Shown: one piece after another, positions 2,644 through 11,394 of the stretch
How the letters are laid out: the number at the start of each line of letters is the position of its first letter
Position numbering within the stretch: position 1 is the first letter of the stretch
Assembly: GCA_016868535.1 (NCBI GenBank)
Contig: VGGQ01000010.1
Location: 1 to 32,485, forward strand
Length of the DNA: 32,485 bases
Source of the DNA: Bacteroidota bacterium
Lineage (GTDB): Bacteria; Bacteroidota; Bacteroidia; NS11-12g; UBA955
Direction: 5' to 3'
Made by a program: the position numbers and the translations under genes
Notes under the pieces: model-generated
The model's database searches: none
Seen by the model: the letters and a program-made list of their open reading frames with translations, nothing else
What the model was told of the DNA's origin: nothing

Positions 2644-3596
2644 CAGGATACAGCTGAATTGCGCAAAGCGAGCCACCTTTCGGCATCGAGGGCGGCCATA
2701 CAACCGCTGCCTGCAGCGGTAACAGCTTGGCGGTATACTTTATCCTGCGCATCGCCAGCACAGAACACCCCTTCCACATTGGTGAAGGAAGTACCGGGTT
2801 TGGTGATAATATAACCCTGCTCATCCATGTTGATGTAGGGTTTGAATATTTCGGTGTTAGGGGTATGACCAATGGCTACAAAAAATCCTTTGATGGGAAT
2901 TTCGCGGGTGGCACTGGTTTGGTTATTCTTTACACGAACGGCCTCTACAGCTTGTCTGCCGAGAATTTCGTCGGTTTCGGTATTGAAAAGCACTTCAATA
3001 TTGGGCATGTTCATCACACGGTGCTGCATGGCTTTGCTGGCGCGGAATTCATTTTTGCGAACCAGCATATAAACCTTGGAACAGATCTTTGCGAGGTAAC
3101 TCGCCTCTTCACAGGCGGTATCGCCGGCACCCACAATGGCCACATCGGAGTTGCGGTAGAAAAACCCGTCGCACACAGCACAGGCACTTACGCCGCTTCC
3201 GTTCAGACGCCGTTCGCTTGGAATGCCCAGCCATTTGGCGCTGGCACCGGTTGAAATAATCACCGAGTCGGCAATAATTTCATGGCTGCCATCTACCATC
3301 ACTTTCTGGGGGCCGCCATTTATAAATTCAACGGAAGTTACCATCCCAAAGCGCACGTCGGTGCCCAGGCGCACAGCCTGTTTTTTGAACATGTCCATCA
3401 TTTCGGGGCCCATAATACCATCGGGATAACCTGGATAATTTTCTACTTCGGTGGTGATGGTAAGCTGCCCACCGGGCTGTAATCCTTCATACAAAACGGG
3501 TTTCATGTCGGCGCGGGCGGCATAAATAGCGGCTGTATAACCGGCAGGGCCACTGCCGATGATCAGACATTCTAAGTGTTCGGGTGCGTTGGTCAT
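2643..3596 (-). CDS. trxB: Thioredoxin reductase
   Basis: NADPH-dependent thioredoxin reductase, a cytoplasmic flavoenzyme that keeps thioredoxin reduced. At 317 residues it has the normal low-molecular-weight length. The FAD-binding GSGPAG motif is at residues 14-19, the redox-active CAVCDG (Cys139 and Cys142) follows the FAD half, and the NADPH-binding GAGDTA motif is at 156-161. The terminal FAD motif CAGDAQDKVYRQAVTAAG is present. Start ATG at 3596 is 13 bases below an excellent promoter on the same strand. Its stop codon overlaps the start of the BNR protein gene by one base, so the two are very probably one transcript; the functional link to a secreted propeller is not obvious. Confidence 0.96.
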   Translation of the reverse strand: MTNAPEHLECLIIGSGPAGYTAAIYAARADMKPVLYEGLQPGGQLTITTEVENYPGYPDGIMGPEMMDMFKKQAVRLGTDVRFGMVTSVEFINGGPQKVMVDGSHEIIADSVIISTGASAKWLGIPSERRLNGSGVSACAVCDGFFYRNSDVAIVGAGDTACEEASYLAKICSKVYMLVRKNEFRASKAMQHRVMNMPNIEVLFNTETDEILGRQAVEAVRVKNNQTSATREIPIKGFFVAIGHTPNTEIFKPYINMDEQGYIITKPGTSFTNVEGVFCAGDAQDKVYRQAVTAAGSGCMAALDAERWLALRNSAVS

Positions 3597-3609
3597 GGTA
3601 TCGAGAAGA

Positions 3610-3642
3610 CAAATTTACAATGAGCACTGCCTATTACACAAA
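3610..3642 (-). promoter_or_regulatory. Bacteroidota-type promoter of trxB
   Basis: On the minus strand TTTG (3642-3639) is followed after 21 bases by TAAATTTG (3617-3610), a perfect match to the Bacteroidota -33/-7 promoter pattern TTTG...TAnnTTTG. The start codon of trxB lies 13 bases further down, so the leader should be only a few bases. Confidence 0.75.
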
Positions 3643-3975
3643 AGGATCTTTAGTTGGGAAAACACAAGTTACGAACAAGAGATATTTATATTGTTTTTTT
3701 ATCGGTTTTGAAAACGTGACATATATTGTATATATTGACTGTTAAGCTGTTTTTTATTTGTTTTTCTTTGCATTTTTTGCGTTGACCATAATTAGACCGA
3801 CAAACATTACGTTCACTGAGTGTGAATAACTTTTAAAATGACCAAAAAGCGATAAACCTCAGTCTTGGCGGCTATGTATTGAATAAGAAAGAGTTACGCA
3901 ACCAATCTTTTACAAAAATATTTGGATTTACAAAACTTTATCCTTACTTCGTATATCATAAAACACTATTTGCCT
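3643..3975. other. AT-rich non-coding stretch
   Basis: I see no convincing gene here. The stretch is very AT-rich, with T-runs around 3691-3697 and 3751-3778 and a direct repeat of ATATATTG at 3721-3728 and 3730-3737. Near the end, TTTG (3921-3924) and TACTTCG (3945-3951) sit about 20 bases apart and could be a weak promoter for the small membrane gene at 3976. A reading frame that begins at 3879 runs across the small gene and through its terminator; it has no homology I recognise and I do not call it. Confidence 0.5.
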
Positions 3976-4071
3976 ATGCAAGAAGATTACATTTGGATTT
4001 TTGCGGGCATTGTGGTAGTGGTTCCGGCAATCTTTCTGATTGCCTGGCTTACATCCCGCAAAAAAAATTAA
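3976..4071 (+). CDS. 31-residue single-span membrane protein
   Basis: A very short gene that standard length cut-offs would miss. It encodes 31 residues: a short acidic N-terminus (MQEDY), one hydrophobic segment at about residues 6-25 (IWIFAGIVVVVPAIFLIAWL) and a basic tail (TSRKKN). The charge distribution predicts N-out/C-in insertion. Support for it being real: a clean start and stop, a hydrophobic block exactly the length of one membrane helix, and a strong intrinsic terminator beginning four bases after the stop. A possible promoter lies at 3921-3951. It resembles the many uncharacterised one-helix small membrane proteins of bacteria; no function can be assigned. It could alternatively be a chance frame in a small-RNA-like transcript ending at the terminator. 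Confidence 0.6.
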   Translation: MQEDYIWIFAGIVVVVPAIFLIAWLTSRKKN

Positions 4072-4075
4072 CCCC

Positions 4076-4098
4076 AAGCCCCGGTATATCTGGGGCTT
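4076..4098 (+). terminator. Intrinsic terminator of the 31-residue protein gene
   Basis: AAGCCCCG (4076-4083) pairs with TGGGGCTT (4091-4098), allowing one G-T pair, around a 7-base loop, and is followed by TTATTTT. The hairpin starts four bases after the small gene's stop codon. Confidence 0.8.
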
Positions 4099-4396
4099 TT
4101 ATTTTACTGTGTTTTGTGCAAAATTGTTTAGCAAAACCACTCACCCCGAATTTTTGGGGTTGGTTTATGAATTGAGGGAGTTTGGTCTTGCGGAATTGCC
4201 AAACAACATCCCGGATTAAAAAACCATCCTATTTACGTTTTGAAACTATATTGTGATTGCATATTATTGCAATAAGAGGTTAAACAACTTGCACAATATA
4301 TCCACCTAGCAAGAAAATATTTTCAACTTTGTTGCGCCAATATGCAAGTTAACTCACAGATACGTATAAAGTACTAATTTTTACAAAACCATAAAA
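4099..4396. other. Non-coding stretch between two terminators
   Basis: No gene is supported. A second hairpin is possible at 4134-4166 (AAACC and ACCCC pairing with GGGGT and GGTTT around GAATTTTT) but lacks a strong T-run. A loosely inverted pair, GTTAAACAACTTGCA near 4279 and TGCAAGTTAAC near 4342, is imperfect. Otherwise it is AT-rich filler. Confidence 0.5.
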
Positions 4397-4419
4397 AAAG
4401 CCCCGTCATCCGGGGCTTT
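4397..4419 (-). terminator. Intrinsic terminator of glnN
   Basis: AAAGCCCCG (4397-4405) pairs perfectly with CGGGGCTTT (4411-4419) around the loop TCATC. Read on the minus strand the stem is followed by a T-run (4399-4393), and it lies about 18 bases after the glnN stop codon. Confidence 0.88.
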
Positions 4420-4436
4420 CTCATTTGTTCATCTTT

Positions 4437-6569
4437 TTAGCGGCAGCCACTCAGCAGGTCGCGGTACTTGGGGAAAGGCCACTCGTTATCGTCTATCATA
4501 CTTTCCAGCGTATCGCTGTATTCGCGGATGTCGTCAAACAGGGGTTTCACCTTTTCGCAATAGGCGATGGCGCGCTTGTGGGCATTCTCAATTTTGTTGG
4601 CATTAGCACGCTCTGCAGTCATGGCTTTGTTGGCTTCGTGCAGTTTGTTTACCAGGCTGCTTATTTCAGAGATAATCTCATTTTGCGCTTTCAGAGTTTC
4701 TTTCTTCTGCCCAATCTGCAAGAGGGTTTGCACGTTGTCGGCCAGACGCTTCTGGTAGTTGATGGCGGCAGGTACAATGTGGTTCTGCACCATTTCATTG
4801 ATCAGACGACCTTCAATCTGCAGGCGCAGTATGTAGTTTTCAAAACGAATCTCGGTACGGGCTTCCAGCTCTTTGTGACTGAAAATGCCGTTCTTCACAA
4901 ACAAATCGGTGCTGGCCTTACTAATATAGGCTTCCAGCGCACGGGGCGTGGTTTTGATATTGTTCAAACCACGGCTTTTGGCTTCTTTTATCCATTCTTC
5001 GCTGTAACCGTTACCACCAAAGAGCACTTTCTTGCTGTCTTTCAGGTACCCCTGCAAAACCTTTTTGATAGCTGCTTCCGACCTGGTCCCTTTTTTGGCT
5101 TTGATGGCGGCATCCACATCCTTCTTAAACTTGATAAGTTGATCGGCCACGATAGTGTTCAGCACGGTCATAGCGCTGGCGCAGTTGTCACTGCTGCCAA
5201 CTGCCCTGAACTCGAATTTATTGCCGGTGAAGGCAAAAGGTGATGTACGGTTTCTGTCTGTATTGTCCAGCAGAATTTCGGGAATATTGGCAATCTTGAT
5301 GCTGGCGTTGCCATTGCCGGCTTTGGCTGGGATTTTAGTGCCTTCTATGGTTTCGAGTACGTGCTCCAAATTATCTCCCACAAACACCGACACAATGGCC
5401 GGTGGTGCTTCGTTGGCTCCCAGTCGGTGATCGTTGGCAGCAGTGGCAATGCTGGCACGCAGCAAATCGGCGTGGTTATATACGGCCTTGATTGTATTGA
5501 TGAAGAAAGTAAGGAACTGCAGGTTGTTCTGGGAATCGGCGCCGGGCGACAGCACATTCACTCCGGTATTGGTGATAATACTCCAGTTGTTGTGTTTGCC
5601 ACTGCCGTTTATGCCTTTAAAGGGTTTTTCATGAAACAGCACTTTCAGGCCGTGCTTGTCGGCCACGCTTTCCATCACATCCATCAGCAAGCTGTTGTGG
5701 TCTACTGCCAGATTTGCCTCTTCAAACTGGGGAGCGCACTCAAACTGTGCGGGTGCAACCTCATTGTGGCGTGTGCGCAGGGGAATACCCAGTTTATGGC
5801 TGGCTTCTTCAAAATCGGCCATAAACGCCAACACACGGTTGGGGATACTGCCAAAATAGTGGTCTTCAAGCTGCTGCCCTTTGGCAGGTGAACTTCCCAC
5901 CAGGGTTCTGCCGGCAAGCATCAAATCGGGGCGCTGGAGGTAGTGGTTTTCATCCACAAGAAAGTATTCCTGTTCCACACCCAGACTGATGGTGCAGTCT
6001 GTAACCTTGGGGTCAAAATAATGGCAAACGTCGGTCGCTGCCTTGCGAATCAGGGCAACGGCCTTCAGCAAGGGAGCCTTATAATCGAGTGCTTCTCCTG
6101 TGTAAGAAACAAAAACGGTGGGAATACAGAGCGTTTTGGCACCTGCCTTCTCCATGATAAATGCGGGAGAAGAAGGATCCCAGGCGGTGTAACCGCGGGC
6201 TTCGAAGGTATTGCGGATACCGCCGCTTGGAAAGCTGGATGCATCGGGCTCCTGCTGAACCAGGGCTTTGCCGCTGAATTTCTCGACACCTTTATCGGTG
6301 GCCACAGGTTCAAAAAAGGTGTCGTGTTTTTCGGCAGTGGTGCCACGCAGGGGTTGAAACCAGTGGGTGAAGTGTGTACAGGCTTTGGCCAGTGCCCAGT
6401 CTTTCATGCCTGCTGCCACTTCGCTGGCCAGTGCGGCGGAGATGGGATTACCTGCGCGCTGGGCGTCAGCAATAGCTTTTACAGCGGTTTTACTAAGGTG
6501 TTTTTTCTGCGCTTCAGGGCCAAAAACGTTTTCGCCGAAGTAGTTAGAAATAAGGTGTTTGTTTGCCAT
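4437..6569 (-). CDS. glnN: Glutamine synthetase, class III
   Basis: Class III glutamine synthetase, which condenses glutamate and ammonia using ATP; this is the common form in Bacteroidota and some cyanobacteria. The 710-residue length fits GSIII, which is far longer than the 450-470 residues of class I/II enzymes. Recognisable blocks include HWFQPLRGTTAEKHD near residue 70-85, FEARGYTAWDPSSPAF, the glutamate/metal-binding region SLGVEQEYFLVD, RHNEVAPAQFE, GSGKHNNWS and the nucleotide/substrate block RLGANEAPPAI. The C-terminal third is helical and lysine/alanine-rich, as in the family. It is transcribed divergently from kup. Upstream on its strand GAACTTTG (6625-6618) is a one-off match to the -7 box. 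It ends in a strong terminator, so it is monocistronic. No adjacent PII or ammonium transporter gene is present. Confidence 0.97.
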   Translation of the reverse strand: MANKHLISNYFGENVFGPEAQKKHLSKTAVKAIADAQRAGNPISAALASEVAAGMKDWALAKACTHFTHWFQPLRGTTAEKHDTFFEPVATDKGVEKFSGKALVQQEPDASSFPSGGIRNTFEARGYTAWDPSSPAFIMEKAGAKTLCIPTVFVSYTGEALDYKAPLLKAVALIRKAATDVCHYFDPKVTDCTISLGVEQEYFLVDENHYLQRPDLMLAGRTLVGSSPAKGQQLEDHYFGSIPNRVLAFMADFEEASHKLGIPLRTRHNEVAPAQFECAPQFEEANLAVDHNSLLMDVMESVADKHGLKVLFHEKPFKGINGSGKHNNWSIITNTGVNVLSPGADSQNNLQFLTFFINTIKAVYNHADLLRASIATAANDHRLGANEAPPAIVSVFVGDNLEHVLETIEGTKIPAKAGNGNASIKIANIPEILLDNTDRNRTSPFAFTGNKFEFRAVGSSDNCASAMTVLNTIVADQLIKFKKDVDAAIKAKKGTRSEAAIKKVLQGYLKDSKKVLFGGNGYSEEWIKEAKSRGLNNIKTTPRALEAYISKASTDLFVKNGIFSHKELEARTEIRFENYILRLQIEGRLINEMVQNHIVPAAINYQKRLADNVQTLLQIGQKKETLKAQNEIISEISSLVNKLHEANKAMTAERANANKIENAHKRAIAYCEKVKPLFDDIREYSDTLESMIDDNEWPFPKYRDLLSGCR

Positions 6570-10982: not shown

Positions 10983-11024
10983 ACCGATTTATTTGGAATT
11001 GTCATTTTTAATTGCGTATATTAG
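10983..11024 (+). promoter_or_regulatory. Promoter with extended -33 element, KSEA-repeat gene
   Basis: ACCGATTTATTTGGAATT (10983-11000) contains the -33 TTTG (10992-10995). After 21 bases comes TATATTAG (11017-11024), one mismatch from TAnnTTTG. The ATG is only five bases further, so the transcript should be leaderless or nearly so. The 18-base upstream block recurs at 16481 and 30034. Confidence 0.6.
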
Positions 11025-11029
11025 TGGTT

Positions 11030-11338
11030 ATGAAAAATTTTATATTTCTGGCTGTTCTCATCTTTCTCAGCCATAAAGCCACGGCTCAAAAAGTGTATAA
11101 AACTTCCTACAAAAGCGAAGCCGATAAAATCATATATGTAACCGAATACAAAAGCGAAGCAGATATGATTGTATATGAAACTCAACATAAAAGCGAAGCC
11201 AAACCCTACAGCGGAATCTGGTTTTGGACACAATATAAGAGCGAAGCAGACTGGAAAGTGTATTTTACCAAATACAAAAGCGAAGCATCGCTGAAAATTT
11301 ATATAACCAAATATAAGAGTGAAGCGGGGATGAAGTAA
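11030..11338 (+). CDS. Small secreted KSEA-repeat protein
   Basis: A 102-residue protein of unknown function. Residues 1-20 are a signal peptide (cleavage likely after ATAQ). The mature part is almost entirely six copies of a 13-residue unit ending in (Y/H)KSEA, with KSEA at residues 28, 41, 54, 70, 83 and 96; only the third-to-fourth step is longer (16 residues, with KPYSG). Between the motifs the pattern is hydrophobic-x-(Y/W)-x-T-x-(Y/H), suggesting short beta strands. No cysteines are present. From memory it resembles the family once called DUF6150, small proteins with Y-K-S-x-A-D repeats predicted to form a 7(1) (septoil) knot; I cannot verify this without a profile search. I chose ATG 11030 because it starts the signal peptide and lies just below a promoter; TTG 11012 would overlap the promoter. 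The gene appears monocistronic. Confidence 0.85.
   Translation: MKNFIFLAVLIFLSHKATAQKVYKTSYKSEADKIIYVTEYKSEADMIVYETQHKSEAKPYSGIWFWTQYKSEADWKVYFTKYKSEASLKIYITKYKSEAGMK
11090..11335 (+). repeat. Coding tandem repeat, ~39-base period, six units
   Basis: Six in-frame units encode the KSEA motifs. The core is AAAAGCGAAGC(C/A) in the first five copies with minor changes (AAGAGCGAAGCA, AAGAGTGAAGCG), starting at 11111, 11150, 11189, 11237, 11276 and 11315. The period is 39 bases, except 48 between copies three and four. Codon-level divergence between units indicates an old array under protein-level selection, not a recent expansion. Confidence 0.9.
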
Positions 11339-11394
11339 AAATCATAAAACCATTCACACGGTTTTGTGTTAATTTACAGACAATTCTACTGATT

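Follow-up and report, generated by a model that had tools for sequence, protein, structure and literature searches.

A six-fold repeated word in a small exported protein

The window analysed here, a stretch of 32,485 nucleotides of DNA from a Bacteroidota bacterium, contains a small gene whose product carries the same short word six times, and the question it raises is what keeps six copies of a word alike along one chain, and what such a chain might build. The reading frame extends from ATG 11030 to TAA 11338 and encodes 102 residues, with the translation MKNFIFLAVLIFLSHKATAQ continuing as KVYK... Its parts are given below, the words being placed by the sequence together with the in-register alignment of the family.

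11030 to 11338, plus strand: gene for the DUF6150 protein, 102 aa, above the PF19647 cut-off, single copy in the genome
11030 to 11086, plus strand: signal peptide, residues 1–19, judged by eye and from the AQ/SQ pattern in relatives
11108 to 11122, plus strand: word 1, YKSEA
11147 to 11161, plus strand: word 2, YKSEA
11186 to 11200, plus strand: word 3, HKSEA
11201 to 11230, plus strand: KPYSGIWFWT, which includes the three residues added between repeats 3 and 4, as well as a near-invariant Trp, from family conservation
11234 to 11248, plus strand: word 4, YKSEA
11273 to 11287, plus strand: word 5, YKSEA
11312 to 11326, plus strand: word 6, YKSEA, with a conserved Gly after it

The mature protein consists of six 13-residue units, each composed of a word, T-x-Y-K-S-E-A, and a segment, [D/x]-x-x-V-Y-x. 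Successive words are 13, 13, 16, 13 and 13 residues apart, which agrees with the initial annotation of six KSEA repeats interrupted once by three residues, and 31 identities are found at a lag of 13, whereas no lag gave more than 19 in 20,000 same-residue shuffles. A hydrophobic N-terminal stretch followed by AQ or SQ is present in nearly all relatives, and cleavage, again by eye, probably occurs before Gln20, in the ...TAQ that closes the signal region. The protein had been described as secreted with a mature length of 82 residues; the signal peptide stands, and the length becomes 83 residues with a cut before Gln20. Its location is probably periplasmic or at the cell surface.

Residues 15–101 match the PF19647 (DUF6150) profile with an E-value of 2.4e-15 and 56.7 bits against a curated cut-off of 27, confirming the family named in the initial annotation; the score was 61.1 bits in a genome-wide search, and NCBIfam held no matching model for the window protein. 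The protein shares with DUF6150 the six words in 13-residue units, the insert of two to three residues after unit 3, the near-invariant Trp and the secretion signal that is usual in members. It differs in its shorter C-terminal tail and in having KSEA with Thr at −6 (offsets are numbered from the Ala of KSEA, taken as 0), whereas the majority of members combine ESQA or ENQA with Val. Neither the KSEA variant nor the insert of three residues, both put forward as undescribed, is peculiar to this protein: about 20 close relatives, all from metagenome-assembled genomes, carry KSEA, and an insert of two to three residues together with the Trp occurs in nearly all members. The window gene, which is under strong constraint, is an unexceptional member of a family that is known but uncharacterised.

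The family is found in about 18% of the genomes sampled from the class and 5% of those sampled from the phylum. No relative was found in the plasmid and phage collections searched, and the viral contigs scanned (IMG/VR) yielded one, L076, which has Tyr at −2 in all its words and is flanked, within positions 3489–6086, by a McrBC-type restriction gene and a gene of an exonuclease/endonuclease family. PADLOC gave no match and PHROGs chance-level matches only. DUF6705, likewise uncharacterised, is weakly matched by positions 11030–11284 of the window, below its cut-off (17.6 bits, cut-off 24.4). Two proteins, L072 (residues 1–239) and L125, from genomes G126 and G724, contain a DUF6150-like domain with no signal peptide, comprising five words, doubly aromatic in all or almost all cases, and no insert; C-terminal to the repeats are a linker rich in Ser, a helix that probably spans the membrane and a weak SH3_3 match (24.1 bits, below cut-off). 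This layout means that repeat number and location vary in DUF6150. Genome G089 holds three matches with identical scores (L006 and two copies) and a different fourth, a hint of recent duplication or mobility.

Transcription and gene neighbourhood

Three further elements flank the reading frame, the last of them from a terminator scan of the region.

10992 to 10995, plus strand: possible −33 element, TTTG, kept in four of five same-genus loci
11017 to 11024, plus strand: possible −7 element, TATATTAG, one mismatch to TAnnTTTG, kept in four of five same-genus loci
11343 to 11368, plus strand: terminator-like hairpin and, after it, a T-rich stretch

The consensus of the Bacteroidota promoter box is TAnnTTTG. 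With TATATTAG at 11017–11024, directly before ATG 11030, transcription would start at or beside the ATG, and the leaderless promoter first suggested is thus plausible in a near-leaderless form. Three terminator-like sites were seen in the region compared with 0.2 expected from shuffles, and the DUF6150 gene is probably its own transcription unit.

Within the genus the gene is syntenic, with a DPP-IV-like peptidase on one side and a Bcp-type peroxiredoxin on the other, and outside the genus it sits among differing, unrelated genes. An assignment of function from operon context was dropped, the neighbours being conserved in the genus only. Unlike the window, other species of the genus have an extra gene between DUF6150 and bcp: genes of the same type, with a signal-like N-terminal stretch, in L034 (5341–6237) and L035 (5338–6243), and a different gene in L032 (5322–5891). 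The extra-gene proteins of L034 and L032 had no Pfam match.

Words usually change together while the framework changes by position

For comparison across the family, 122 DUF6150 sequences were aligned in register, and identity statistics were computed for 66 diverse non-degenerate members, with repeats permuted between proteins (300 permutations). At offset −6 and at offsets −4 to −1, the six repeats of a given protein agree with one another, and different proteins do not. Within-protein identity at −4, −3, −2 and −1 is.88,.60,.92 and.86, compared with.53,.24,.42 and.41 after permutation and permutation maxima of.56,.28,.47 and.45. The segment following the word behaves differently: from +1 to +6, within-protein identity in the 66 members is at or near the permuted value, and identity between proteins is.54–.65 at the same repeat number versus.10–.34 at other numbers. 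The homogenised half of the 39-bp unit ends with a sharp edge at the Ala, and within it the offsets alternate, −6, −4 and −2 being strong and −5 nearly free. The words seen are Y.SE, F.SE, W.SE, Y.SQ, Y.NQ, Y.HQ, Y.YQ, S.YD, A.WK, S.SD and N.AY, most of them repeated six times within one protein.

The same division appears in 504 pairs of relatives with framework identity of at least 70%, which share ancestry and are hence non-independent. The numbers of pairs differing in zero to six repeats are 271, 73, 7, 21, 10, 27 and 95 at −4, and 218, 28, 9, 16, 1, 25 and 207 at −2; both distributions are U-shaped, and those at +1 to +6 are single-peaked and low. Between relatives with similar frameworks, words usually differ in either none or all six of the repeats. 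L014 and L005, for example, are identical in 90% of framework columns and in 25% of word residues, and genomes G590 and G744 each encode two paralogues with different words on frameworks that are 74–81% identical.

Doubly aromatic words occupy all six repeats of L086 and the first repeat only of L081, L082 and L085, and they look like intermediates of a jump of the aromatic residue from −4 to −2. A rule of an aromatic residue at −4 or −2 and never at both was discarded, since L086 has both six times, L083 has none and L084 has its aromatic residue at −1. Milder swaps have intermediates as well, with Y, F and W mixed in L051, L088, L115 and L044, so that the coupling of words between repeats is not absolute. 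Matching words are missing from degenerate members, namely the second gene of L011 and L067–L069; in L011, a gene with matched words lies next to its degenerate, unmatched neighbour, and in L069 two adjacent DUF6150 genes are both degenerate. A tree of the 52 non-word columns, poorly resolved and indicative only, requires the aromatic class to have changed at least 11 times and the word at least 30 times.

A proposed closed fold, possibly knotted

On balance we lean towards a reading in which all six words are packed against one another within a closed, pseudo-symmetric and possibly knotted envelope protein. The window gene gives rise to a small exported protein, and the word and the following segment of each unit would do different jobs. 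The six words would touch one another or fill equivalent sites of one ring or ladder, and such contact or equivalence would allow a word to change only if all six change. The fold would be a closed, pseudo-symmetric β-structure with its two ends meeting. With less confidence, it may be a torus-type knot like that of Q9PR55, which would make a rigid, protease-resistant module, and, most tentatively of all, its job may be that of a stable binding or structural module of the envelope and not of an enzyme, since DUF6150 has no residue of catalytic appearance that is conserved throughout. The alternation of −6, −4 and −2, with −5 almost free, speaks for a buried strand face.

The meeting of the ends is suggested by five distant members of the family (L116, L117, L130, L131 and L132), which form a divergent subfamily with the word xFAD and an aromatic residue at −1 in most repeats. 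Each has exactly two Cys in the repeat domain, one immediately before repeat 1 and one immediately after repeat 6, and the spacing is 84 residues in all five; the window protein does not have the pair. We infer that the two Cys form a disulfide, in which case the ends would be adjacent, an arrangement that an open solenoid of six coils would not permit.

A more specific proposal, compatible with the closed fold, is that the window protein is a direct homologue of Q9PR55 and shares its 7_1 knot. The initial annotation took DUF6150 to be the family to which the 7_1 knot belongs. The knot had been cited as proposed; for Q9PR55, an uncharacterised Ureaplasma protein of 89 residues, it is in fact seen in a crystal structure (8IWA), and is firmer there to that extent (PMC9278004, PMC13352647). 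The homologue P73136, with a predicted 5_1 knot, differs from Q9PR55 by one winding (PMC9278004). Both resemble the window protein in being small and uncharacterised, and the Cys pair, with the adjacent ends that it suggests, fits such a relationship. However, the searches found no sequence similarity of Q9PR55 to DUF6150: 8IWA was not matched when six queries or profiles were run against solved structures at E limits of 1 or 10, which returned chance matches only. Furthermore, the literature search found no paper that mentions DUF6150 or 'septknot' and none that ties DUF6150 to a knot. AlphaFold2 models were too poor to use, with a pLDDT of 40.6 from 19 close relatives, signal peptide included, and of 42.1 from 22 mature sequences, probably because the alignments contained close relatives only, and a fold search with the latter model gave no match. 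In that model, only suggestive at a pLDDT of 42, most K-S-E words take the form of a short helical turn and some of the following segments that of strands. These results neither support nor refute the knot, and, taking both sides together, we place a 7_1 knot by direct homology slightly on the doubtful side of an even balance.

Two other repetitive β-proteins invite comparison. The DUF2963 or Scorpion repeats of phytoplasmas, arrays of 1–24 β-hairpins (PMC12633904), are likewise β-rich and uncharacterised, with a repeat of about 26, or 2 × 13, residues, but their match to the window protein is at chance level (E 0.41, 10.5 bits against a cut-off of 22.6). The Knotted Solenoid fold of 2026 is a repetitive β-protein with a knot, of a different type (3_1) (PMC13123833).

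An extension of the closed-fold reading would treat the word, aromatic and polar in its make-up, as one evolving character that jumps in all six repeats at once (to −4, −2, −1, both −4 and −2, or none) by way of doubly aromatic intermediates. Homotypic contacts between words would then both set and lock a closed, probably knotted fold, and the self-matching code would keep paralogues from entangling. We offer this as speculation that is rather unlikely to hold in full.

In an open β-solenoid, one coil would correspond to each 13-residue repeat and the words would be stacked as ladders on one face, with neither closure nor knot. Solenoid ladders favour like residues, and both the regular 13-residue step and the resemblance of the homogenised −6, −4 and −2 positions to ladder positions are what this arrangement would give; yet the second halves of the repeats would stack too and are not homogenised. 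The span across six solenoid coils is about 25 Å or more, too far for the end Cys of the five relatives to be joined in one disulfide. We regard the open solenoid as unlikely.

Alternatively, the words could be six binding sites for a ligand that is itself repetitive, for instance a surface polymer, with the word tracking changes of the ligand. Residues that each bind one identical unit of ligand would likewise become homogenised with no mutual contact, which counts against the contact reading, and the all-or-none word changes, the different-word paralogues of G590 and G744, suited to different specificities, and secretion itself are in agreement with such sites. Against them, the alternation, in which −5 is almost free, is more in keeping with a buried face than with an exposed site, and there are no conserved ligand-related neighbours, the flanking genes being different outside the genus. 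We consider this explanation improbable.

Probable selection on the protein rather than recent homogenisation of DNA

The closed-fold reading supposes that the words are kept alike at the level of the protein, and synonymous codons bear on this. Inside words, synonymous codon identity is 0.51 observed versus 0.48 expected, a difference of 0.035 ± 0.017, and Ser codons of the TCN and AGY types are mixed at one word position within single genes. Codons this near to random mean that recent homogenisation of DNA does not explain the alike words, and selection on the protein is the simplest account of their likeness; gene conversion in the words, if old or rare, may have contributed to some extent, codon identity being slightly above expectation. 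Concerted evolution of the DNA by gene conversion or slippage, with no structural meaning, is the usual cause of homogeneous repeats and could draw on the first 2.4 copies of the 39-bp unit, the only ones detectable as a tandem array (11108–11200, 79% matches), and on the slight excess of identical word codons, largest in L083, L086 and L106, but the confinement of homogeneity to half of each unit and the codon data leave it very improbable, and its recent form largely refuted.

In L043, 90% of the aligned mature residues are identical to those of the window protein, its synonymous codons agree at 0.46 versus 0.48 for random, and the best Bcp match in its genome is only 50% identical. KSEA relatives outside the genus share up to 90% of aligned mature residues, their best Bcp matches being mostly 46–66% identical. 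At the level of these codon and residue comparisons, strong purifying selection on the DUF6150 protein is evident. Recent horizontal transfer of the KSEA type across families was rejected, synonymous codons being at the random level despite 90% identity.

Significance of joint word switching

The family-wide pattern is less ordinary than the gene itself: one half of the repeat switches jointly in six copies, and the other half evolves position by position. As judged from related sequences, this joint switching reflects a constraint on the protein and not recent homogenisation of the DNA, and its structural meaning would be the packing or equivalence of the six words. If DUF6150 proteins are knotted, the family would offer a natural series of word-swapped proteins with the same framework for testing what specifies a complex knot and in what ways such a knot can evolve, and L014 and L005, with 90% identical frameworks and wholly different words, would be ready-made constructs for this purpose.
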